Positions 36,164 through 47,743 of a stretch of DNA of 48,007 bases are shown here, piece after piece (position 1 is the first letter of the stretch; each line of letters opens with the position of its first letter). The stretch is from Fidelibacterota bacterium (GTDB lineage: Bacteria; Fidelibacterota; Marinisomatia; Marinisomatales; SCKK01): the NCBI GenBank assembly GCA_004124475.1, contig SCKK01000025.1, forward strand, positions 1 through 48,007, read 5' to 3'. The notes below the pieces were generated by a model, which was given only the letters and a program-made list of their open reading frames with translations, searched no databases and had not been told where the DNA came from. Both the position numbers and the translations under genes were made by a program.

Positions 36164-36735
36164 GGGTGTACATTTGATATTACCTATTAATTAGCTGGAA
36201 AATCCTATGAATCACTCTAAATTTTTTACAATCTATGACAAAACACTATTATCAACTAATAATATTGTCACCAATTAAGGATGATAAGCTTAATAAACAA
36301 TAATTATAACTTTTTGCAACCGGGTTGAAAACTATCTAAGCAGCCGAGGAATTTTCGTCCCGATTTAATGGGTTGTGGCTTTTAAGTTTATCTTTACCTA
36401 CAGTAATCAGTTTAATTCAACCCCTCCAGGGTTGGGGTATTTTCCAGATTCAATTCTATTCACATTTAACCCCTTTGGGGTTTTGAAACTAGACCATAAT
36501 CCTAAAATCCCAGTAAAGCGATCATTTCAAAATCCGAAATTAGCAATTGCCCAACATCCTGTTATCCAACTGGCGAATTCTATTCCTTCCCTATAGGGGA
36601 AGAATGTGAATAGAAAAGAAAGTATGAGCTATCCGACCCTGAAGGGGTCGAATAATAACACCCCTTGAAATACAGTTTTTTCCGAATGGAATTTTCCTAA
36701 GTTCCAAACGTAATATCAGGAGTACACCCGACTTG
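36164..36735. other. Insert splitting the tRNA repeat array, hairpin-rich
   Basis: No gene is supported. Several hairpins of the AACCCCTTTGGGGTT type occur near 36419, 36469 and 36638. An ORF across them (36375-36596) is made of hairpin translations and is rejected. The stretch separates the third and fourth repeat units, so it was inserted after the array formed or is where a deletion began. Confidence 0.4.
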
Positions 36736-36870
36736 GTTTGTTTCGCCTGCCCGCCGCAGCGAAGCACAGGAGGGTCGATCCCGCTGAAAACCAAAACCCT
36801 GTCGCATGGTGGGGTTTCTTGTTTTCATTGGAGAAGCAAGAGACTTGGTTTGTCTCGCCTGCCCGCCGAG
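36736..36870. repeat. Fourth copy of the tRNA-Asp 3' end/terminator repeat
   Basis: A CGCCTGCCCGCCGCAGCGAAG piece at about 36744 leads into GTCGATCCCGCTGAAAACC at 36774 and a further terminator copy (36795-36826), here with CCCTGTCGCATGGTGGGG. A partial fifth GC piece begins near 36856. The copy is in the same orientation as the others. Confidence 0.75.
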
Positions 36871-37130
36871 ATTGGTCAGGCGTTGCAGATAGGAAAGAAT
36901 TCATTTTGAAAAAATGTTGGTGATTTATATTCCACCCTTTCAGGGTTTTAGCTTGTATTGTATAAATAGCTATAATCATCACATCCTTTCATGATTTACC
37001 TTTTTCCCGAATATAAAGTATTGAGAGGATTACCTGATAACCATAGTGCCAGTACAGGCAGGATGGAGGATTTACAAACCAGCGGAGAATTTCACCATTC
37101 ACGTTTTGAAGTGAGAAATGATAGTAATTA
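36871..37130. other. Intergenic, no gene seen
   Basis: AT-rich sequence with one CCCTTTCAGGG hairpin near 36936. It ends at the 3' end of the minus-strand speE gene. I see no coding or RNA feature. Confidence 0.35.
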
Positions 37131-38675
37131 TTAATAGATATCCCAATTCCCCTTTAAATAATATTGATATAATCTAGGATTTATAAGTGTATTTACTTCA
37201 ATTTCAGATTTATCTGAAAAAATGGGTTTTCCGAAGGAAAGGATTAAATTCATAGCTTCATTGTTAATCCAACGAGTTTCGATATTATTGAAATCAATTT
37301 TTAACAACTTAGCTTTTAATTGCAATTTAGGAATTGACTTAGAGCCTAGTACCCAACCCCACTCACCCATTGTAAGTACTTGATTATGTAGGGGGAGCGT
37401 CTGAAAACCTGCGGCTGTCATCGTTTTTTCAATACACTGAAAGGCTTGTGTCGCATAATATGGGCTTCCAGCTTGAGTGACTATAAGTCCCCTTGGTCGA
37501 AGAAGCCGATAACATAATTGATAAAATTCAAGCGAGTATAACCGCCCTAATTCTACGGTTTTGGGATCAGGTAAATCCGCAATTATAATGTCAAAATAAT
37601 CTTGCGAATCATTTAAAAATTGATATGCATCTCTATTAACGATATTAACCTTAGGGTGATTAAGAGCATTTTGATTTACTTCGGTTAAAATAGGGTGTGT
37701 TTGCCCTAACGTTGTCATAGCTGGATCAATATCCACTACAGTGATTTGTTGAACTTCTCTATACTTAAGAACCTCACGCACAGCACAACCATCTCCACCA
37801 CCAAGGATTAAGACACTGTGAGGAAGTTCTGAAAGCTGCATAACCGGATGAACTAGCGGTTCATGATATAACCACTCATCAAGCGTGCTGAGCTGTTGAT
37901 TCCCGTCAATGAACAGCCAATAATTGTTTTTCCATTGTGTAATCACGATCTTTTGATAACGGGATTGTTCTGAATACACAATTTTGTCTTTATATTTAAC
38001 CTGTTCGCCGTAAAGGATAATAGGTTTCGAATAAATGAATCCTGCTACCAATAAAATAGAAATACCAAAAGCCATTCCACTTATTAAACTCGACCCTTGT
38101 ATTTGAAAAGGTTTTCTTAATTTTAGGAACACAGCCACGGCAACGATAAAATTGATGGATCCTAGGATAAAGGGGGTGTAAGCCAATCCCAGATAAGGCA
38201 AACCGACAAACGCAAAAAACAATCCACCGACAAAACTGCCATAATAGTCTTTCTCCATGACTGTTGCGATGTTCACCTTGAGTTCTTCAAAAGTATCATT
38301 AAGACGGATTACTAATGGAATTTCCATTCCAATAAGAATCCCAATCATAATAGCCAAGAGGTAAATAAAAAATCCAGTCGCGCTCGAAAATACCGACAAG
38401 TAATAGACAGAAATCGCGGAAAATGATGTAAGAATTGAAAGTGAAAATTCGATTAACAGAAAATTTTTTAGGAGCTGAACTTCAAAATACTTACTGATTC
38501 GACTTCCCATTCCCATAGAAAACAACATGATAGATATGATCATCGTCCATTGGAATACGGAATTGCCTAAAAAATAGGTCGCTAATGTAGCAAGAATATA
38601 TTCCGCTACGATTCCGGAAAGACCCGTTGCAAATAGAGCGTATTTCAGAATATTGGATTTCTTATGGAACGACAT
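37131..38675 (-). CDS. speE: Membrane-bound spermidine synthase (polyamine aminopropyltransferase)
   Basis: A 514-residue protein: about seven membrane helices in residues 11-215, then a spermidine-synthase domain. That domain retains YHE (270-272), the SAM-site LILGGGDGCAVREVL (GGGDG 292-296), the acidic DID (315-317) and DLPDP (367-371), the positions that bind decarboxylated SAM and the amine. It likely transfers aminopropyl groups from decarboxylated SAM, perhaps at the membrane. It is the last gene of the minus-strand pspA cluster. The membrane anchor sets it apart from ordinary SpeE, and its true acceptor could be something other than putrescine. Confidence 0.85.
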   Translation of the reverse strand: MSFHKKSNILKYALFATGLSGIVAEYILATLATYFLGNSVFQWTMIISIMLFSMGMGSRISKYFEVQLLKNFLLIEFSLSILTSFSAISVYYLSVFSSATGFFIYLLAIMIGILIGMEIPLVIRLNDTFEELKVNIATVMEKDYYGSFVGGLFFAFVGLPYLGLAYTPFILGSINFIVAVAVFLKLRKPFQIQGSSLISGMAFGISILLVAGFIYSKPIILYGEQVKYKDKIVYSEQSRYQKIVITQWKNNYWLFIDGNQQLSTLDEWLYHEPLVHPVMQLSELPHSVLILGGGDGCAVREVLKYREVQQITVVDIDPAMTTLGQTHPILTEVNQNALNHPKVNIVNRDAYQFLNDSQDYFDIIIADLPDPKTVELGRLYSLEFYQLCYRLLRPRGLIVTQAGSPYYATQAFQCIEKTMTAAGFQTLPLHNQVLTMGEWGWVLGSKSIPKLQLKAKLLKIDFNNIETRWINNEAMNLILSFGKPIFSDKSEIEVNTLINPRLYQYYLKGNWDIY

Positions 38676-38734
38676 TGTTCCTTATAGATTGCTACTTATT
38701 TCAGGAAAAAATTAAAACAATAACGGTTTATAGT

Positions 38735-39580
38735 TCATAAGCTCCATGTAATAAACATCGAGCTTCCGATATAGGCAAAGGCTTCAATAATCGCTGCACC
38801 GTGGTTTGGTTTCTCTTGATTAATTATTTCATCAGTTAACTTTCGACCTGGAAGTAAAATTTTATCTGCTAATAACCTGACAATTGGTAAAAATATTAAA
38901 CCGATAATCAGAGGTAACCAGATATCATTAAGAGTATCTATCCAGTTGAAAAAATCACCCATGAGCGCTGCCCGAATGATATTACCAATAGCTATTAGTG
39001 CACCAGCAAACCCGATCCCCACAGCTACATTGTCTTGTTCAATATGTTCATGAATGTCATAGGGCGTCATCAGGTTATAGATGATTGATACGATAACCAT
39101 AACCACAAGTCCGATGATCCAGTAACCAACGGCAGTAAAAATACTCCCACCTTCGCCAGAAACAGCACTAAAAATAATGAGTCCGGATGAAATGCAAATA
39201 GCTGCTTCGACGACACCGGTACCAGCATTTTGATCATCGATAATTTCCTTGGTTACACTGAATTTCCGTAAGATGAATCGGTCATTTACGAAAATGGAAA
39301 AATTAAGTAAAATAATTGATAGTATACCATAGATCAGAATATCTGTTAAGTCCTCGATTAATCCTTCTGATTGTCCTATTATTGAGCCGCCTATTACGAT
39401 GACAAGTCCAATAAAATACCCAGTATATGAAAGAGCAAATGCAAAATTATCTTTTTCGACCAGTTCACTATTTATATCAAAGTTTGGATGAAATAAACGG
39501 TAGGCAATTTTACCAATGTAGAACAGGAAAAAACTGATTATTAAATAGACGACCAGAGTTAAGATTTTATCTAGAGACAT
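38735..39580 (-). CDS. Membrane protein with two DUF350 domains (YjfL-like)
   Basis: A 281-residue protein with about eight membrane helices in two similar halves. The half-repeat is visible as KDNFAFALSYTGYFIGLVIV (residues about 43-62) and QDNVAVGIGFAGALIAIGNI (about 182-201); each half continues with a NxAxA-type helix. This is the DUF350 duplication seen in E. coli YjfL. Its function is not known. In clusters with PspA-family genes it is a steady partner, and the small helices suggest a membrane channel or sensor (inference). It lies 59 bp upstream of speE. Confidence 0.8.
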   Translation of the reverse strand: MSLDKILTLVVYLIISFFLFYIGKIAYRLFHPNFDINSELVEKDNFAFALSYTGYFIGLVIVIGGSIIGQSEGLIEDLTDILIYGILSIILLNFSIFVNDRFILRKFSVTKEIIDDQNAGTGVVEAAICISSGLIIFSAVSGEGGSIFTAVGYWIIGLVVMVIVSIIYNLMTPYDIHEHIEQDNVAVGIGFAGALIAIGNIIRAALMGDFFNWIDTLNDIWLPLIIGLIFLPIVRLLADKILLPGRKLTDEIINQEKPNHGAAIIEAFAYIGSSMFITWSL

Positions 39581-39664
39581 AGCTTTTCCTAAAACTAATT
39601 GAGAGATTAATAGTGAATCATGTGGTTTTTAATTTAAATCCACGATAGGCTATTCGACGCCTTA

Positions 39665-40396
39665 CTATTTCCCAAAACCACCACTTCTTGAACGCAAGCC
39701 AGAACCGGTTTTGTATCTTCCTGCTGAACGATTCACCCGATTAGTAACCCTTTGCTTGAAATTTGAAGATTTTTGTCTGATACCACTCATTTTTCGCTGG
39801 AAGGAAGAAGAACGGCTATTTTTATTCACATGGCCGTAGGTTCCATACGTGGGCCTACCACCCACAGTGGGGCCATAATAAGGACGACGATAGCGATAGT
39901 TATTATAATAACCGTTATAATAACGTCCATTTACTGGATGAGCAAACAGATTAAACATGGTACTCATAAAAGCAAATTGACCGTAAAACGCCCAAAAGGA
40001 GGTCCCATCATTACGTTTGCGCCACTGCCCGTATTTTTCATTCCCTATGTAGTTAGAAAAGCCCGCGGGTGCAGGGGTTTTATGAATTTTCCCATCGGCG
40101 GTTTTAGAAACCAATTCCATTCCCACATTATTTTCGTTTTTCCAGAAGAAATTTTTACTAACCTGATACCGCTCTGTGACCTTTTGTTCAGGAACACCAT
40201 TTTTTTCAGTAATGATTTTATATTGGTGCATATGACGCTTGACAAAAGTTCCCTGAACATCCATATCATAAAGAATAACAGTATAGGTTGGCTCAGCTTC
40301 AAAGTCGCGAATAAATTGATCTAAAGGTGACTCTACGTAATTCCCTTTACAGGAAAAAAGAATTAAAGCAAGTACACAGATAACTATTTTTTTCAT
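39665..40396 (-). CDS. Putative lipoprotein with Arg/Tyr/Gly-rich tail
   Basis: A 243-residue protein with signal peptide MKKIVICVLALILFSC, lipobox Cys16. Residues 20-140 form a compact domain (for example EAEPTYTVILYDMDVQGTFV); after residue 150 it is low-complexity, rich in Tyr/Asn/Arg/Gly and then in Ser/Arg (NRVNRSAGRYKTGSGLRSRS), giving a strongly basic C-terminus of some 60 residues. I recognise no family. Its ATG overlaps the TAA of the DUF4178 gene by one base. It probably sits in the envelope as the outer component of the pspA/DUF350 cluster. Confidence 0.7.
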   Translation of the reverse strand: MKKIVICVLALILFSCKGNYVESPLDQFIRDFEAEPTYTVILYDMDVQGTFVKRHMHQYKIITEKNGVPEQKVTERYQVSKNFFWKNENNVGMELVSKTADGKIHKTPAPAGFSNYIGNEKYGQWRKRNDGTSFWAFYGQFAFMSTMFNLFAHPVNGRYYNGYYNNYRYRRPYYGPTVGGRPTYGTYGHVNKNSRSSSFQRKMSGIRQKSSNFKQRVTNRVNRSAGRYKTGSGLRSRSGGFGK

Positions 40397-40932
40397 TATC
40401 CTTCCCCGGGTAAAATATTTGAAAATTCACTTTCTCTCACTATACGACCGTATCTGGCTTCGAATTCATCATCTCCCCATTGTTCGATCGTTAGGACGTA
40501 TTCGTTTGATTCATCCTTGTATTCCCAACTGATAAATTCTTCCCAATTTTTATTTCTCACATCACGAAAATAGCCGGGATCTTCGGAATCGCGGGAAAAG
40601 GTTTTTCCATCATATGCCAATTTATTGGGTGGTTTTTCATTGGAGTTTATGTGATCCGCTAAATCATCATAGAGTGAGTGAAACTTGATCTTGCGAGAAA
40701 TCGAATACACTAATTCATCATCCTCATCGATATTGAGGTAAACTGTATCGTCACTAGACTTAAGTTGAAATTCCTTGCTGAAACATTCGTTTCCCCAGTC
40801 ATATTCGTAGGCGCGGACTACCTCCCAGGTATATAGATCGAAATCCAGTACAAACCCAACTTGTAGATCGGAAAGGACAAGATTAGTAGGATCGTATGGT
40901 AATGTTTTCTTCTTTTTCCATCCAAATATCAA
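40396..40932 (-). CDS. DUF4178 domain protein
   Basis: A 178-residue soluble protein. LSDLQVGFVLDFDLYTWEVV near the start and the later WEEFISWEYKDESNEYVLTI are typical of DUF4178, a beta-rich domain usually found with PspA, SpeD/SpeE-like genes and DUF350 proteins. No catalytic residues are known. The run of acidic residues (SSDDTVYLNIDEDDELV) is striking. Translation is coupled to the downstream lipoprotein gene (TAATG overlap), and it follows pspA after 73 bp. Confidence 0.8.
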   Translation of the reverse strand: MIFGWKKKKTLPYDPTNLVLSDLQVGFVLDFDLYTWEVVRAYEYDWGNECFSKEFQLKSSDDTVYLNIDEDDELVYSISRKIKFHSLYDDLADHINSNEKPPNKLAYDGKTFSRDSEDPGYFRDVRNKNWEEFISWEYKDESNEYVLTIEQWGDDEFEARYGRIVRESEFSNILPGEG

Positions 40933-41005
40933 CTGTGATTCCCTTCAAAAGTGGTATTGGATGTATATTAGTTGAAATTTGCGCCCAGTACTATTGTTTT
41001 GCAAA

Positions 41006-41704
41006 CTATTTTTTTAATTTTGATTTGAACTCAGCAAGTAGCAGGTCACCGGTTGTATCATTGCTGCTCAGAGCGCGATCAATTTCGGAATCCAGATTAT
41101 TAGTAAGACCTTCCATTTCACCATAAGCTTCAGCGAGGGATTCATCCTCATCAATCTTTTGTTTCATACGCTCAAGCATATTAATGGTGCTACTTGAGTC
41201 GATACCAGAAAGCTGTTTATTGATCTTTTTCATCGATTGCGCGGTTCTTGCCCGAGCCTTCAAAGTAATGAGCTCATTCTCTTGATTTGAAATTGTCCTC
41301 TGTAACTTTTCTACCTGAACCGTCAACTTACCAACCAGTTCAGTTTGTTTTTCAGCGTTTACTGATGCTGTATTGGCCTTTTTAAGGGCATCATCTTTTT
41401 TCAATAATGCTTCTTTAGCTAAACGCTCACCTTCTTCCCGTGAAATAGAGCCCTCTTCCACTTTTTGTAAAAGTAAAACAGTTTTCCGCTCCCAATCCTC
41501 AGCTTGTTCTGTGTATTTTTTCTTATCCCGCCCCATTCCAATTCCCTGGGCTTTCACTTGGGCGAGAGCTTTCATGGTTTCGGACAGATCTTTTTTCAAA
41601 TCCCGAATCGCCTGTTCAAACATTTTAATGGGATTTTCAATTTTATCAATGAGGTCGTGAGCTTCTGCCTGCGTCACTTTAAATAATCTTGAAAAAATAC
41701 TCAT
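41006..41704 (-). CDS. pspA: PspA/IM30 family membrane-stress protein
   Basis: A 232-residue coiled-coil protein of the PspA/Vipp1 (ESCRT-III-like) family. It opens MSIFSRLFKVTQAEAHDLID, which contains the amphipathic helix, then has the family pattern PIKMFEQAIRDLKKDLSETM and MKALAQVKAQ. The rest (to about residue 190) is heptad-rich Glu/Lys/Ala. It binds stressed or leaky cytoplasmic membrane and forms rods or rings. It is the second gene of the cluster, 11 bp after the YbjN-like gene. No pspF or pspBC is present, so regulation differs from that in enterobacteria. Confidence 0.9.
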   Translation of the reverse strand: MSIFSRLFKVTQAEAHDLIDKIENPIKMFEQAIRDLKKDLSETMKALAQVKAQGIGMGRDKKKYTEQAEDWERKTVLLLQKVEEGSISREEGERLAKEALLKKDDALKKANTASVNAEKQTELVGKLTVQVEKLQRTISNQENELITLKARARTAQSMKKINKQLSGIDSSSTINMLERMKQKIDEDESLAEAYGEMEGLTNNLDSEIDRALSSNDTTGDLLLAEFKSKLKK

Positions 41705-41715
41705 GGTCTTCCCTT

Positions 41716-42108
41716 TTATTTACATATTTCAATCAATTCGTTACCATACTCAGCCATGGCTAATCCTAGCGCTGAAAGTGTTCCCTCCACTTCGTTCTCA
41801 TCCAGATTTTCCAGTTGTAAGGTATCGCGAAATAACAGCCGGTTTTCCTCAGAATCCAATACAAAGGCGCCATGCACTAGTTCACGATTAATTTGCATAA
41901 GCCTTTTATATGTCTCTTTCGAATCATTTTTGATAATACCGATGAATTGTTCGAATATCAGAATTGGATCTTCGCAATCAACTACTAAGTTCAATACACC
42001 ATTATTTTCATTCGCAACAACAACGATTTCGTCATCAGGATCTTCCGATATAATATCATAGCCTAGATTAACAATATAGGACTTGGTCAATTCAAATTTA
42101 TTTTCCAT
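41716..42108 (-). CDS. YbjN-like (secretion-chaperone-fold) protein
   Basis: A 130-residue acidic protein, first of the minus-strand cluster. The pattern ELVHGAFVLDSEENRLLFRD followed by TLQLENLDENEVEGTLSALG is that of the YbjN/CesT-like fold used by small chaperone-like proteins. E. coli's yjf operon has a small protein (YjfI, DUF2170) in the same first position before the PspA paralogue YjfJ; this may be its functional counterpart (inference). It probably binds PspA or another cluster member. Confidence 0.65.
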   Translation of the reverse strand: MENKFELTKSYIVNLGYDIISEDPDDEIVVVANENNGVLNLVVDCEDPILIFEQFIGIIKNDSKETYKRLMQINRELVHGAFVLDSEENRLLFRDTLQLENLDENEVEGTLSALGLAMAEYGNELIEICK

Positions 42109-42622
42109 AAGCTCTCCTATTTTTGTTAAAGTTAAAAGTATAGCATGAATTTGGAGTCATAGTTTACTTTAATTATACTAATATTTTGTTTAATTTAATA
42201 GTCAGAAATGTAAGCAAATGAGAATAATTAATCATCAATACAGATTGTATAAAGTCTGTATTAGGTTACCTGACTTCTAACCTGGATTATTCGCCGCCAA
42301 GACATTTGGTTAAGATTACTCACCGAACAAATCGGCACAACTAATGGATTATGAAGACTTTGTGTCCCTGCCCTATGAAATAGGGTTCCCTCTGGGAATT
42401 TCACAGGGTAAATGCCTTAGCCTGCCCCGTAGGGAGGAACGACCGTATCGGGGTGGCTGGTGAATAGATCAGGCTAATACTATCAAATAATAATACAGTT
42501 TCATAAACGATACAGTAATATACTCATGTTTCGCAGGTACATTTCGTTACGATTTCCACGCCTGACTGGGCGCCAGATCGGGCAGGTATGTTGAAGGGTA
42601 TGCGAAACTTAAGTAATATACT
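42109..42622. promoter_or_regulatory. Divergent regulatory region of the pspA/speE and speD/K+ channel genes
   Basis: These 514 bp lie between divergent gene sets and must contain both promoters. The AT-rich first 130 bases after ybjN are the likely promoter area. Beyond them GC-rich palindromic pieces (near 42370-42410 and 42555-42590) resemble dispersed repeats found elsewhere. I cannot identify an operator or sigma-factor site. Confidence 0.4.
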
Positions 42623-43675
42623 ATGAAACCAACCGGTACTCAACATTCCGTTGAATTCCAACGATGTATGTCATCAATCCTAAAGAATGCTACTCTATTA
42701 GAGACCATACTTCGTGAAGGATTGAATCATGCCAATTTGAGTCATGTGCGGACGATTAGTCATCAATTTACGCCTGTAGGTGTAACAGTTTTAGCCATCG
42801 TTCGCGAGTCACACGTTGCTATCCATACCTACCCTGAAACAGCCCACGTATCCATTGATATTTTCACTTGTTCGGATTCCCAAAAGCATCTCCGATTGCT
42901 GGAATATCTGCAAGAACGCTTTCAACCCCAATCTGTTCATACGGTAGAATTACAACGCGGTATTCCTCTTGCGGTTAAAAATAAAAGTTGGTATACGGCT
43001 TCATCAAGTGAAGGATTTGCTGTACGATACGATGTGAGCCATGTTATTGCTCAACAAAAATCTGATTTTCACCTAATTGATATTATACAAAATCCTGCTT
43101 TCGGTAAAATGCTGTTTTTGGATAAACGGTTGCAAATTGCTGAAAAAGATATCCCCTATTTTAAAAAGTTAACGGGGACTTCGATTTTGAAACCCAATAT
43201 AAAGTATCATAAAATAGCCATTAATGGTGTAACGATGATTGGGTTGATTCCGGAGCTTACAAAAGCTGCAGAAACGGTTTATATAATCGATCACGACCAA
43301 GCGGTAATCGACCTGGTAAACCAATATTTGTTCCCAAATATTATAGACCAGCCCGGCGTTGAGTTGATATTTGGTAACTTCAATGAAAGCACAAAACACG
43401 TTGGAGAATTTGATGTAGTATTTTCTACCGCAAACTTACCCGTTATGCCGGATACACAATTGTTGAAAAACAGCGCGCTTGAAACATTATTCCTTTCAAT
43501 TTCAGAGAAAATGGTAGATGATGGAAAGATGGTATTTTTCGTAGGCAGTATTACCGGTCACTCAAAACAACTGATTGAACAGATAGCAGCAAACTATTTT
43601 TCAGAAGTCGAATTAATTACCACTTACATCCCATCTTTTATTGAAAGACAATTGTTTTGTATCGCCAAAAAATAA
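42623..43675 (+). CDS. speD: SpeD (S-adenosylmethionine decarboxylase) fused to degenerate spermidine-synthase-like domain
   Basis: A 350-residue fusion. Residues 1-115 are a class 1b AdoMet decarboxylase: ESHVAIHTYPETAHVSIDIF puts Glu62-Ser63 at the self-cleavage site that makes the pyruvoyl group, His68 and Cys83 at the positions used in the Thermotoga enzyme. From 120 on it follows the SpeE fold (GKMLFLDKRLQIAEKDIPYF, 161-180), but GGGDG is replaced by INGVTMI (200-206) and the D..DP motif by STANLP, so aminopropyl transfer is probably lost. It would supply decarboxylated SAM to the membrane SpeE. The K+ channel gene follows after 13 bp. Confidence 0.85.
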   Translation: MKPTGTQHSVEFQRCMSSILKNATLLETILREGLNHANLSHVRTISHQFTPVGVTVLAIVRESHVAIHTYPETAHVSIDIFTCSDSQKHLRLLEYLQERFQPQSVHTVELQRGIPLAVKNKSWYTASSSEGFAVRYDVSHVIAQQKSDFHLIDIIQNPAFGKMLFLDKRLQIAEKDIPYFKKLTGTSILKPNIKYHKIAINGVTMIGLIPELTKAAETVYIIDHDQAVIDLVNQYLFPNIIDQPGVELIFGNFNESTKHVGEFDVVFSTANLPVMPDTQLLKNSALETLFLSISEKMVDDGKMVFFVGSITGHSKQLIEQIAANYFSEVELITTYIPSFIERQLFCIAKK

Positions 43676-43688
43676 ACGAAAGCACATC

Positions 43689-44708
43689 ATGATCTTCATG
43701 CTTCGAAAAATTGCGTATTTCTTCCAAAAACGAAGTATAATCATTATCTTGTACTTATTAGGTTTATTTCTGGTTACTTCGGTCCTCATGCCTATTCTTG
43801 AAGGTCATGACTCGCCAATAGGCAACGTTTTTGATAATGCCTGGTGGTTTATCGTTACGATAACGACAGTCGGTTATGGTGATATAACCCCCCAAAGCAT
43901 TGGCGGGAAAATTCTTGCAATTATCGTTATGCTTAGTGGAATCGGTTTTGCAGCCGGATTGATTACCTATATTTCAACCACGATTGTTGATAAACAAAGA
44001 AAATCACAAAAAGGAGTTAACAAATTGAAAGTAAAAAACCATATCGTCATATTAGGATATAATCAAAACGATTTTTTTTCATTAGTCCAAGAAATACTGG
44101 CCGATACTCATCGTAAGAGCCGAGCGATTGTCCTATGCACTAATTCTCTTGATGAGAATCCATTACCAAATGAAATACAATTTGTGAAAGGCATTATTCA
44201 TTCAGATCAAGTCCTGGAAAAAGCGAATATACCGGCAGCTAATAGTGTAATCATTCACGGAAAAAATGATCAGGAGAATATTTTGGCAACATTGGCAGTA
44301 TTTAACGTCAATAAAAAGGCTCATATTGTCACCTATATTGAAAATCCTGAAAACGTGAAACACATCAAGCGGATTGACCCAAATACCTCGGTAGTGAATC
44401 CGGATTTCGTGCCATTAATAGTTCAGGAAATGCAGGATAGGGGTACTTTAAATGTCATTAATGAACTATTACGTAATGATACAGGGAATGAAATATATCG
44501 TGTAGATATCCCTGCAATCGATCAACGATGGAAGTTCCGTCAACTATATATTGAATTTAAAGACAAATATCATGCTACTATCATTGGGGTAAAAAATGAG
44601 AAATTAGTTTTAAATCCAAATCCTGATCTAGAAATCAGCGGTGGAACTTCTTTATTTATAATCGCTATAGACCGACCGCACCAGATCGATTGGGGAAAAA
44701 TTGAGTGA
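43689..44708 (+). CDS. Two-helix potassium channel with RCK/TrkA-N domain
   Basis: A 339-residue Kch-type channel. TM1 is about residues 15-36, the pore loop ends in the filter ITTVGYGDITP, and TM2 is LAIIVMLSGIGFAAGLITYI. A cytoplasmic RCK domain (VKNHIVILGYNQNDFFSLVQ) follows; the nucleotide-binding Gly-x-Gly is altered (GYNQND), so NAD or nucleotide binding may be weak. TrkA_C-like residues end the protein. ATG 43689 gives a sensible start; the frame reaches upstream into speD. Polyamines block K+ channels from inside, so the pairing with speD is suggestive. Confidence 0.85.
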   Translation: MIFMLRKIAYFFQKRSIIIILYLLGLFLVTSVLMPILEGHDSPIGNVFDNAWWFIVTITTVGYGDITPQSIGGKILAIIVMLSGIGFAAGLITYISTTIVDKQRKSQKGVNKLKVKNHIVILGYNQNDFFSLVQEILADTHRKSRAIVLCTNSLDENPLPNEIQFVKGIIHSDQVLEKANIPAANSVIIHGKNDQENILATLAVFNVNKKAHIVTYIENPENVKHIKRIDPNTSVVNPDFVPLIVQEMQDRGTLNVINELLRNDTGNEIYRVDIPAIDQRWKFRQLYIEFKDKYHATIIGVKNEKLVLNPNPDLEISGGTSLFIIAIDRPHQIDWGKIE

Positions 44709-45182: not shown

Positions 45183-47294
45183 TCAATATTCTTTTACTTC
45201 TTTTTTTGTTTTCTCTTTTTGACCTGTCAAGTCAATAATCACCTCATCACCAGCAATGTTTCGTATTTTCATTCGTAAAGGTTTCTTTTTGGATATGATT
45301 TTAGCGGCCCAGAAATTCTTGGTTTTCTTTCCGTCTTCAACGATGTAACCAAGTTTGTCAATTTTGATTTCCCGGTCGCTATGCCAAAGGCCTTCTGTAT
45401 TTGTACAATCCAAACTGATGAACTCGATAAGTTCCAGTCCAACATTACTTATTTCGATGGGAACAAACTTTTTCTTTTTCTTCTTTGACTTTTTTTCGTT
45501 CTCATCTTCATTAACTTCGTTCAATGGCTGCAACTGCCCTTTTTGGTTGTATTCGTCAATCTTTTGACGAAGGCGGTCGCTGATGAATTGGGTCAATTCA
45601 ATTATAAATTCTCCCTTGTTCTCGGTTAGATTGTATTCCGCATAGTCGTCCACCACTGTTTCTGCAAGCAATTGTTTGAGGTCGCGCAGTTCGATGGCGA
45701 TTTCCGACATGTTGTTGTCCTTGATGAACTTCAGGATGGCTTTTTCATCATCCATGTCGATATAATTGACAACGGTTTTCTGCACGTTCTCCAATGCTGG
45801 GAGTTCTTGGTTCACAATGCGGTTTATGATGGGAATGTCCAGCACTTTTTGAGTATGGTCGGTTAGGTCAGGAACGTAAACCGGAATCGTGCCCAACTTG
45901 CTGTCACTGATGGAGCCAAACCAATATTTGGAAAGCCCGTTTATCTTTTGCTGCAAGCCGGGAATAAGCTTTGCCAACTTATCCATTGTTTGCACAGGGT
46001 TACGAAACAGGTTAACACCGTCTTTGATTTCCAAAATGTCAAACTCTACACCTGCTGAAACCAATCGGTCTCTTGTGGTTTGGATGCTGTTGATGCCAAC
46101 ATCCACATGAATAAAGTTACGCCTCAAATCATGGGCTACTTTAGCCGTTACACCACTGCCACCAAAGAAATCAGCTATAATCATTCTTTCCTTGGTTCGT
46201 TCATCTCTAAACTCCTTGCTATGCCCGTACACTATTCGTGTTAGCAAGGATTCTGGTTTTTGCGTTGAATAATCTAATCTTTCTTTAGCTACTGGATTAA
46301 TTACGAAGATGTCCGTCCACAAATTGGAAATCGGCTGTCCTTTATATTCATCTAAATAGATTTTTCTATAAATCCTATTTCCCTTTTTAGGAAAGTACAA
46401 TTTTCCCTCTTTGTCCCATTTTTTCATAACATCTATTTCTATTGACCATCCATTTGGGGGTGCGGTATATCCTTTGTAATCATAAACCAAGTTTTCCCGG
46501 TAATTGGGGCTAACTATTGGTGACGTCATATAAACCCTTCCATCCTTGTCTTTATTGGTAAATCGTTCTTTGATATATTTTTGGACTTCAGGGGTATCCT
46601 TCACATAGGTTTGATTAAAAACCATTTCCTCACCAATTGAATACCAAAAAATATGGTCGGTGGCTACGTCATACTGTTCTGAAGGATTAGAACTACCACC
46701 CTTCCTTTTCCAAATTATCTCATTATGAAAATTATCTTCCCCAAATACTTCATCCATAAGCACTTTAGCATAGTTCCCGATATGCCAATCCAAATGAACA
46801 TATATACTTGCCGTTGGGGTCATTATACTTTTAATAGCGAAAAGGTTCTCATACAACCAATTCAAGTATGCCTCTTTATTCCAGATATCGCCATACATTT
46901 TTTCTTCAAATGCCTGTAGTTCATTTATATCCAGCGTTTCCTCCGATTTTTTAATGGCATCGGCTACTTTGGGGTTTCTGCGAATATAAATTTTTTTGGC
47001 ATAGTCGGCTCCGCTGGCAAAGGGCGGGTCTATATAAACCAGATCCACATAAATGCCCTGTTCCTTGAGGTAGGCACAGGCGGAGATGCACTCGCCTCTT
47101 ATGACCATGTTTTTCGGGTTGTCGCCAACGCTTTCCACCTTTTCCAATTCATAGTAGGGCATGCCCTTCTCTATCTTATAGTAAACCTTGTTGTTGTCCC
47201 AGTATTTCAGTGCCCGATGGGTGCGCACAAAGTTGTTGAGGATGGCTTGACCCTCAACGGTGTCCGGGTAATAGGGTATGTATTTTACCGGCAT
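45183..47294 (-). CDS. Beta-class adenine-specific DNA methyltransferase (Mod-like)
   Basis: A 703-residue N6-adenine DNA methyltransferase. The catalytic motif IV DLVYIDPPFASGADY (DPPF at residues 89-92) comes first, and the SAM motif I IADFFGGSGVTAKVAHDL at about 372-390 comes later, the order of the beta class used by type III Mod subunits. The C-terminal 250 residues hold a Lys-rich stretch (KKSKKKKKKF) and a beta-rich end, likely target recognition or partner contact. No Res-type endonuclease is in the window; it may lie beyond the right edge or be lost. The start ATG 47294 lies one base after the end of the rhuM C-terminal frame. Confidence 0.88.
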   Translation of the reverse strand: MPVKYIPYYPDTVEGQAILNNFVRTHRALKYWDNNKVYYKIEKGMPYYELEKVESVGDNPKNMVIRGECISACAYLKEQGIYVDLVYIDPPFASGADYAKKIYIRRNPKVADAIKKSEETLDINELQAFEEKMYGDIWNKEAYLNWLYENLFAIKSIMTPTASIYVHLDWHIGNYAKVLMDEVFGEDNFHNEIIWKRKGGSSNPSEQYDVATDHIFWYSIGEEMVFNQTYVKDTPEVQKYIKERFTNKDKDGRVYMTSPIVSPNYRENLVYDYKGYTAPPNGWSIEIDVMKKWDKEGKLYFPKKGNRIYRKIYLDEYKGQPISNLWTDIFVINPVAKERLDYSTQKPESLLTRIVYGHSKEFRDERTKERMIIADFFGGSGVTAKVAHDLRRNFIHVDVGINSIQTTRDRLVSAGVEFDILEIKDGVNLFRNPVQTMDKLAKLIPGLQQKINGLSKYWFGSISDSKLGTIPVYVPDLTDHTQKVLDIPIINRIVNQELPALENVQKTVVNYIDMDDEKAILKFIKDNNMSEIAIELRDLKQLLAETVVDDYAEYNLTENKGEFIIELTQFISDRLRQKIDEYNQKGQLQPLNEVNEDENEKKSKKKKKKFVPIEISNVGLELIEFISLDCTNTEGLWHSDREIKIDKLGYIVEDGKKTKNFWAAKIISKKKPLRMKIRNIAGDEVIIDLTGQKEKTKKEVKEY

Positions 47295-47295
47295 A

Positions 47296-47743
47296 TTATT
47301 TCTCTTTTAATCGTTTTACTACTCTGTCAAAATCTGAAATAAATGTTTTGTCCTGTTTGATTCTGAAATCTGTCTTTGTCAATTGCAAAACCTTTAAGGA
47401 TATAATTTTTTAACTTATCCGTAGCCCAGGTTCTGAACTGTGTGCCTCTAACGGTGTTCACACGGTAGCCAACGGCAATAATTGCTTCGAGAGAGTAATG
47501 CTTTGTTGTGTATTTATTTCCATCCGAAGCAGTTATTAAGAAAACCTTAATAACTGAATTTTCATCAATTTCCTTTGTCAGAAATATATTCCGCAGGTGC
47601 ATATTTACGTTTGCAACGGTAGTTTCAAAGAGTTTCGCCATCAGTTTTTGGGTAAGCCAGAACTTTTCATCCGAAAACAAAACACCGATTTTTATTTTCC
47701 CGTCTTCAGTCTGGTATATTGTGATTTGATTATTAATTTCCAT
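47296..47743 (-). pseudogene. RhuM-family gene, internally deleted
   Basis: The first frame (ATG 47743 to 47327, 138 codons) is the RhuM N-terminal domain: MEINNQITIYQTEDGKIKIG, then FWLTQKLMAKLFETTVANVN, SLEAIIAVGYRVNTVRGTQF and TWATDKLKNYILKGFAIDKD. The family is normally about 330 residues. Just after KGFAIDKD the homology shifts frame and resumes with FRIKQDKTFISDFDRVVKRL KEK ending at TAA 47296-47298, which looks like the C-terminal end of RhuM. About 170 middle codons are thus missing. RhuM genes often ride with restriction or mobile islands. Confidence 0.72.

Follow-up and report, generated by a model that had tools for sequence, protein, structure and literature searches.

A divergent PspA-DUF350-aminopropyltransferase locus in a Fidelibacterota bacterium and the C-terminal lysine of its exported partner proteins

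Ravi et al. 2024 (PMC11237479) reported operons that contain a CesT/Tir-PspA dyad, and their "second major group" (e.g., AAN56744-AAN56747) comprises CesT/Tir, PspA, DUF4178, a novel lipoprotein, a DUF350 protein with 8 transmembrane (TM) segments, and a 7TM protein with a spermidine-synthase domain. These authors proposed polyamine monitoring, and their paper cites Li et al. 2019 for linkages to S-adenosylmethionine (AdoMet) decarboxylase (AdoMetDC). We analyzed a stretch of 48,007 nucleotides from a Fidelibacterota bacterium (assembly GCA_004124475.1, contig SCKK01000025.1, positions 1 to 48,007; hereafter the window), in which 8 genes between positions 37,131 and 44,708 form an arm of this type on the minus strand and a divergent arm on the plus strand. 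We propose, with a probability of roughly 0.4, that the membrane-bound spermidine synthase homologue of this locus (mSpeE) uses decarboxylated AdoMet (dcAdoMet) made by SpeD to aminopropylate the C-terminal lysine of an exported tail protein. In bacteria without spermidine, Li et al. (2019, Biochem J) reportedly found functional AdoMetDCs with linkage to DUF350 and to an MFS-SpdSyn fusion; the fusion is said not to have complemented a spermidine synthase mutant, and aminopropylation of something besides putrescine was reportedly proposed, with the acceptor not identified. The window likewise joins AdoMetDC, a membrane SpdSyn fusion, and DUF350, as those clusters are said to do, and differs in offering a candidate acceptor, the Lys at the C-terminus of a partner protein anchored in the membrane. 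Pfam and NCBIfam searches of the window proteins gave the following gene family assignments.

37131..38675, minus strand: mSpeE, membrane aminopropyltransferase (Spermine_synth 4e-38; NCBIfam NF002956 558 bits, above the cut-off)
38735..39580, minus strand: DUF350 membrane protein (PF03994 9e-58, two repeats)
39665..40396, minus strand: Arg/Ser/Gly-rich lipoprotein with the end ...RSRSGGFGK (lipobox LFSC, Cys16)
39668..39703, minus strand: coding sequence for the final 12 lipoprotein residues, including the C-terminal Gly-Lys (from the sequence)
40396..40932, minus strand: DUF4178 protein, beta-rich, signal sequence not apparent (PF13785 8e-18; AlphaFold2 [AF2] model with pLDDT 92.8)
41006..41704, minus strand: PspA/IM30 (YjfJ-like) membrane-remodelling protein (PF04012, PspA_IM30, 7e-40)
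41716..42108, minus strand: CesT/Tir-type chaperone-like protein, 130 amino acids (aa) (PF22550, CesT_Tir_1, 1e-46; YbjN 3e-8)
42109..42622, no strand: inter-arm region of 514 bp (from the sequence)
42623..43675, plus strand: SpeD-SpeE fusion (AdoMet_dc, PF02675, 1e-29; Spermine_synt_N; weak Spermine_synth)
43689..44708, plus strand: RCK-type K+ channel with a TVGYGD filter (Ion_trans_2, PF07885, 3e-14; RCK/TrkA_N, PF02254, 3e-9); open reading frame (ORF) listed from 43641

Component by component, the minus arm corresponds to the second major group, with the lipoprotein compared by position. This type of cluster is therefore already known, and the view in a preliminary description of this DNA that the set is undescribed is not supported for these 6 genes, which were already published (PMC11237479). 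All 8 genes that it named exist at their coordinates and strands, and the family searches agreed with its labels; the gene that it called YbjN-like is present and is better labeled CesT/Tir-type, because the CesT_Tir_1 match is far stronger than that to YbjN. This 130-aa gene starts the minus arm and adjoins the PF04012 gene as the CesT/Tir-PspA dyad of the published group, and DUF350 and DUF4178 are likewise present. An N-terminal 7TM region before the spermidine-synthase domain was recovered by hydropathy (7 segments; AF2 merges TM5 and TM6), and at the place of the Ctha_1186-type lipoprotein lies the window lipobox protein (39665-40396), which matched zero Pfam families and may be its counterpart. 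What the window adds to the published group is the divergent arm, with its fusion of SpeD to a presumably dead SpeE and its K+ channel; Ravi et al., in contrast, placed a K+ channel in the ligase group (PMC11237479). The DUF4178 model, although good, had no PDB fold matches at E<=0.001, and assigning a function to this protein by fold was dropped.

The preliminary description had also compared the set with E. coli yjfI-J-K-L-M-C, an apt analogy, as that locus encodes DUF2170, PspA, DUF2491, DUF350, a DUF1190 protein, and a ligase. The yjfIJKLMC and ygiBC loci share with the window PspA, DUF350, and an exported Gly/Ser/Arg-rich partner beside a polyamine enzyme, whereas they carry an ATP-grasp ligase in place of the aminopropyltransferase and SpeD, DUF2491 in place of DUF4178, and a DUF1190 partner that ends GG rather than GK. 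None of the 8 window proteins matched an ATP-grasp (GspS-like) ligase family in Pfam or NCBIfam, and a DUF1190 partner ending GG was not found, the window lipoprotein having the ending and the lack of Pfam matches given above. YgiC and YjfC are annotated as "peptide--spermidine ligase" in RefSeq, and passages of PMC12270671 and PMC12568646 cite Pederick et al. 2023 (doi 10.1021/acs.biochem.2c00592) for peptide-spermidine ligases.

The C-terminal lysine tail of the lipoprotein, which the preliminary description had missed along with the loss of catalytic motifs in the fused SpeE half, is the best clue to the operon product. Scanning bacterial and archaeal genomes with an mSpeE alignment yielded 80 loci, and profiles built from the window proteins served to annotate them. 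Among the neighboring genes, exported proteins of different families end in -GK or -HK. These tail proteins include window-type lipoproteins of 240-290 aa, versions of 540-580 aa, DUF4247 proteins of Bacillota, anchored peptides of 76-80 aa and 48-68 aa, and C-terminal extensions of DUF4178 with a TM segment before the tail. Without their last 12 residues, 98 tail proteins fell into 16 sequence clusters, 6 of which had at least 7 members. Homologues of the window lipoprotein ended in GK in 33/33 cases (discovery and Pseudomonadota sets).

A rule fixed beforehand, calling for an unlabeled same-strand ORF beside DUF350 or mSpeE with an N-terminal hydrophobic segment and a hydrophilic tail, was applied to loci of Pseudomonadota that had not previously been inspected. 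Among Pseudomonadota, 21 held-out loci had DUF350 and 15 of them had any candidate, with a Lys-ending candidate in 12 of the 15; the same filter, run on genes from other parts of the discovery loci with a length of 150 aa or more, found [GH]K in 3/151. A wider tally that included DUF4178 fusions identified [GH]K in 18/21 Pseudomonadota and 11/11 Bacillota loci (29/32 held-out), and since this wider rule was set after the first held-out result, 12/15 is the cleanest figure for Pseudomonadota and the Bacillota set is the cleanest for the final rule. The 3 held-out exceptions end in HGGK (L174) and RIK (L158 and L161), and by inspection 32/32 held-out loci end in Lys. Control TM ORFs elsewhere had the ending in 6/1017, 0/45, and 0/16 cases (6/1,078 in total). 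Within the discovery set, 60/70 loci passed automatically; the failures comprised 6 that trace to incomplete contigs or to tail proteins that the filter overlooked (L033, L035, L037, L051, L085, and L090), 1 with a 64-aa protein ending in RVK (L014), and 3 that were unexplained or cut off (L015, L023, and L058). The main text of PMC11237479 was searched for a mention of a C-terminal lysine and had none. More broadly, our literature search found no description of the tail rule, most subscription papers being outside its reach, so that earlier notice is possible. In the literature available, we did not find the fused SpeE that should be dead, the divergent layout, or, above all, the C-terminal Lys rule.

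The residue before the lysine varies with the neighboring amine chemistry. Loci with -HK tails had a neighboring flavin adenine dinucleotide (FAD)-dependent amine oxidase (PF01593) in 29 cases and lacked it in 2, whereas for -GK tails it was present in 2 and absent from 64 (nominal Fisher 5e-20, HK vs. GK, a probability that overstates the significance because the loci are not phylogenetically independent). A twin-arginine-like motif was identified in the first 75 residues of 27/35 of these oxidases, many of them with a lipobox after it and some with uncertain starts; the oxidase is thus probably exported by the twin-arginine translocation system, and its amine substrate therefore probably lies outside the cytoplasm. 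In 19 loci of the HK type (e.g., L060:13144-14190, plus strand), the oxidase is followed by a multi-TM protein of ~348 aa without a Pfam match, which is a constant partner of this subtype. The DUF1190 neighbors of the peptide-spermidine ligases end in GG (YgiB ...SMGG and YjfM ...HWGG), as do 18/27 DUF1190 loci in all, the rest ending mostly in GS or SS. Lys offers in its side chain the same butylamine that putrescine presents to spermidine synthases. Since the ending differs by enzyme, GG with the ligase and Lys with the transferase, the last residue of the exported tail matches the group that each enzyme could use, the Gly carboxylate for the ligase and the Lys butylamine for the aminopropyltransferase.

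mSpeE combines an N-terminal TM domain with an intact spermidine-synthase domain. In an alignment of 49 homologues, Q241, D266-E267, Y270-H271-E272, G292, G294-D295-G296, D317, D349, D367, and D370 are invariant or nearly so; these positions are the dcAdoMet-binding and catalytic residues, and the GGGDG loop and the catalytic Asp pair are kept throughout, with one Gly of GGGDG near-invariant. The AF2 model of mSpeE has a pLDDT of 92.5, and in a fold search its catalytic half matched soluble aminopropyltransferases, the top matches including archaeal and Thermus enzymes and thermospermine synthase. The listed matches cover the SpeE half only, and tracing the origin of the TM domain by fold search was dropped. 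Hydropathy and positive-inside counts gave 7 TM segments with the N-terminus inside, loops 2-3, 4-5, and 6-7 having on average 2.5, 3.0, and 3.6 K+R vs. 0, 0.2, and 0.5 in the others, and this topology would therefore put the catalytic domain outside.

A Spermine_synth search of the window genome identified no stand-alone soluble SpeE, and PF02784 ornithine/arginine decarboxylases were absent from that genome and present in 13/14 control genomes; its gene content suggests that it lacks the classical polyamine pathway. The sole other Spermine_synth match in the genome is a 1,133-aa multi-TM fusion on contig 15 (L114:4805-8206, minus strand), which adjoins a gene resembling cyclopropane-fatty-acid synthase by eye.

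On the plus arm, the N-terminal half of the fusion, aligned to 1TLU, retains the residues characteristic of a class 1b SpeD active site, namely the Ser for self-cleavage (ESH), the His (IHT), and the Cys (FTC). Its C-terminal half can be aligned with spermidine synthases across the tetramerisation domain and a large part of the catalytic domain, with INGVTMIG in place of the GGGDGG loop and STANLP in place of the catalytic DSTDP; because both motifs are lost, this half should be catalytically dead, and a second active synthase was rejected. Human spermine synthase is the mirror image, with a degenerate AdoMetDC-like half and a live synthase half. Fusions of Ca. Pelagibacter (PMC11107197) have the same order of an N-terminal class 1b AdoMetDC and an aminopropyltransferase domain, but both of their activities are functional, whereas the window transferase half is without catalytic motifs. 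Docking of the pseudo-SpeE onto mSpeE is speculation and would fail with the catalytic domain outside, as in the hydropathy topology. The SpeD of related Bacteroidota loci is stand-alone. A second AdoMet_dc homologue of the window genome, 128 aa long, lies on contig 54 (L113:5995-6381, minus strand; PF02675 4e-14) beside a 456-aa gene; its cleavage site reads TSN instead of ESH, and it may be a neofunctionalised SpeD, a kind of paralogue described in PMC10407285. Loci with mSpeE in genomes without a detectable AdoMet decarboxylase were seen in Nitrospinota (L036, L038, and L040) and Campylobacterota (L053, L056, and L070).

We propose that the 8 genes would act as one envelope-stress module. 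SpeD would decarboxylate AdoMet to the aminopropyl donor dcAdoMet, and mSpeE would use this donor to aminopropylate the C-terminal Lys of the tail protein at its epsilon-amine, not free putrescine. The acceptor in the window would be the lipoprotein ending in ...SGGFGK, and the product would be a tail that is tethered to the membrane, flexible, and basic, with a spermidine-like tip. Together, the TM domain of mSpeE and DUF350 could form a membrane platform that may hand over the donor or display the tail, with CesT/Tir, PspA, and DUF4178 as the cytoplasmic membrane-remodelling side and the RCK K+ channel as a possible effector that senses the polycationic tail or is blocked by it. The modified tail might bind anionic envelope components, or block or gate the channel, in a PspA-dependent membrane-stress response, and in the HK subtype the exported amine oxidase would act on it. 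The underlying chemistry would, just as tentatively, be a type of protein modification that had not been reported from bacteria before. Aminopropylated lysines occur in diatom silaffins (PMC3820600), where, as in the proposed tail, the aminopropyl units are on lysines of secreted proteins; silaffins are eukaryotic, modified on internal lysines, and part of silica biology, and the likeness proposed is a chemical one. A polyamine or aminopropyl product tied to membrane stress, as suggested in the preliminary description, is also the published reading for this operon class (PMC11237479).

Several points weigh against modification of the tail. Predictions disagree on the side of the membrane on which the catalytic domain of mSpeE lies: an outside position would suit the lipoprotein tail and not cytosolic dcAdoMet, and the AF2 secondary structure fuses TM5 and TM6 into one helix, which would put the domain inside. 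PF02675 AdoMetDC was undetected in 10/29 relatives checked, among them all 3 Nitrospinota and all 3 Campylobacterota of the 29; a class-2 AdoMetDC was found in 1 of these 10 genomes, several of which are incomplete metagenome-assembled genomes. The NCBIfam name of NF002956 is "polyamine aminopropyltransferase," the loci lack phylogenetic independence, so that nominal probabilities for the tail counts come out too strong, and the terminal Lys could be a recognition element rather than the acceptor. From these patterns we infer Lys as acceptor, what DUF350 does, a coupling of tail and channel, and what the tail is for.

The name of NF002956, the fully conserved active site of mSpeE, and the polyamine monitoring proposed by Ravi et al. 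(PMC11237479) would all suit a membrane-bound synthase of spermidine or another free polyamine, with a soluble polycation acting on membranes or channels and the tail protein serving only as a structural partner. We regard this as unlikely, given that it leaves the C-terminal Lys rule and the co-variation with the amine oxidase unexplained and that the window genome is without PF02784 decarboxylases; the fusions of Li et al. also reportedly do not substitute for spermidine synthase and occur in bacteria that lack spermidine. Somewhat less probable still is a C-terminal [GH]K that mSpeE never modifies and that DUF350, PspA/SPFH, or a protease would read as a signal for recognition or export; recognition tags typically take the form of a short C-terminus conserved across unrelated proteins, and at least 2 held-out tails end in IK, but a tag of this kind does not account for an ending that varies with the amine chemistry of the operon. 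Aminopropylation of a lipid head group (e.g., phosphatidylethanolamine) to give cationic lipids, in an MprF-like manner and with the Lys tail as a lipid sensor or anchor, is improbable, since the constant partners include neither a lipid enzyme nor a flippase and the changes among GK, HK, and GG endings would be left unexplained, even though mSpeE is membrane-embedded and has links to PspA and DUF350 and, in relatives, to SPFH.

The two divergent arms make up a single linked set, as the preliminary description had held, because their parts recur together and form a single same-strand run in several Bacteroidota. In L020 and L022, CesT, PspA, DUF4178, lipoprotein, DUF350, mSpeE, SpeD, and channel follow one another on one strand, with 1 extra small gene ahead of the channel in L022, and L024 and L025 have the same run minus the CesT-PspA pair. 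Module parts are rearranged in Nitrospinota loci, and in distant loci the cytoplasmic scaffold is swapped for TelA (L017 and L059) or SPFH (L018). Among the 70 discovery loci having DUF350, SpeD was identified within 8 kb in 35 and the K+ channel in 15, and 7/11 held-out Bacillota loci had the channel. That the speD-fusion/channel pair is an unrelated neighbor of the known 6-gene operon, as the 514-bp gap and a SpeD fusion unlike the stand-alone SpeD of relatives might suggest, is largely refuted by these counts, by the single run in Bacteroidota, and by locus L003 of the sibling species, whose layout is divergent in the same way. The neighborhood survey called for in the preliminary description thus found the parts co-occurring across phyla; a random neighborhood was ruled out, as joint recurrence of the same parts in other phyla is not chance.

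DUF4178 was identified in 2/245 genomes of the window's phylum (the window genome and one congener) and full-length mSpeE in 2/244, 2 other matches covering the SpeE half only. As only 2 species of one genus carry the set, the module was probably acquired horizontally in this phylum. A tblastn search for DUF4178 relatives on plasmids gave none; in other searches, DUF4178 genes did adjoin mSpeE on plasmids.

The link between PspA membrane stress and polyamine enzymes in this operon class was known before, whereas its aminopropylated target was not. A C-terminal Lys that is almost universal among unrelated partners, with an ending that varies with enzyme type, makes this question directly testable by mass spectrometry. 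If modification of the tail is true, it would be a new protein modification for bacteria, made by a widespread system, with polyamine-like tails on proteins, as in diatoms, and it would give a function to DUF350/DUF4178 neighborhoods in many phyla. Two unrelated enzymes, a ligase and a transferase, would then converge on the same kind of product (cf. the GG-tailed DUF1190 system), and mSpeE would become a candidate enzyme family for comparison with silaffin-type lysine modification.

Small J-domain (DnaJ) proteins of ~120 aa occur in the neighborhoods of L026, L032, L034, L036, and L041. Within the window, the K+ channel probably starts at ATG 43689 rather than TTG 43641, since translation from the listed TTG would begin inside speD. 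Intergenic stretches that are GC-rich and repeat-like (e.g., CGCCTGCCCGCC) were seen at 36720-36890 and 42400-42470, near the end of the minus arm and the inter-arm region. Beside the module, at 45183-47743 on the minus strand, lie genes that by eye resemble a DNA methyltransferase (703 aa) and RhuM and would fit a horizontally acquired region; an ORF at 2-751 on the minus strand, transposase-like by eye, extends past the left contig end.

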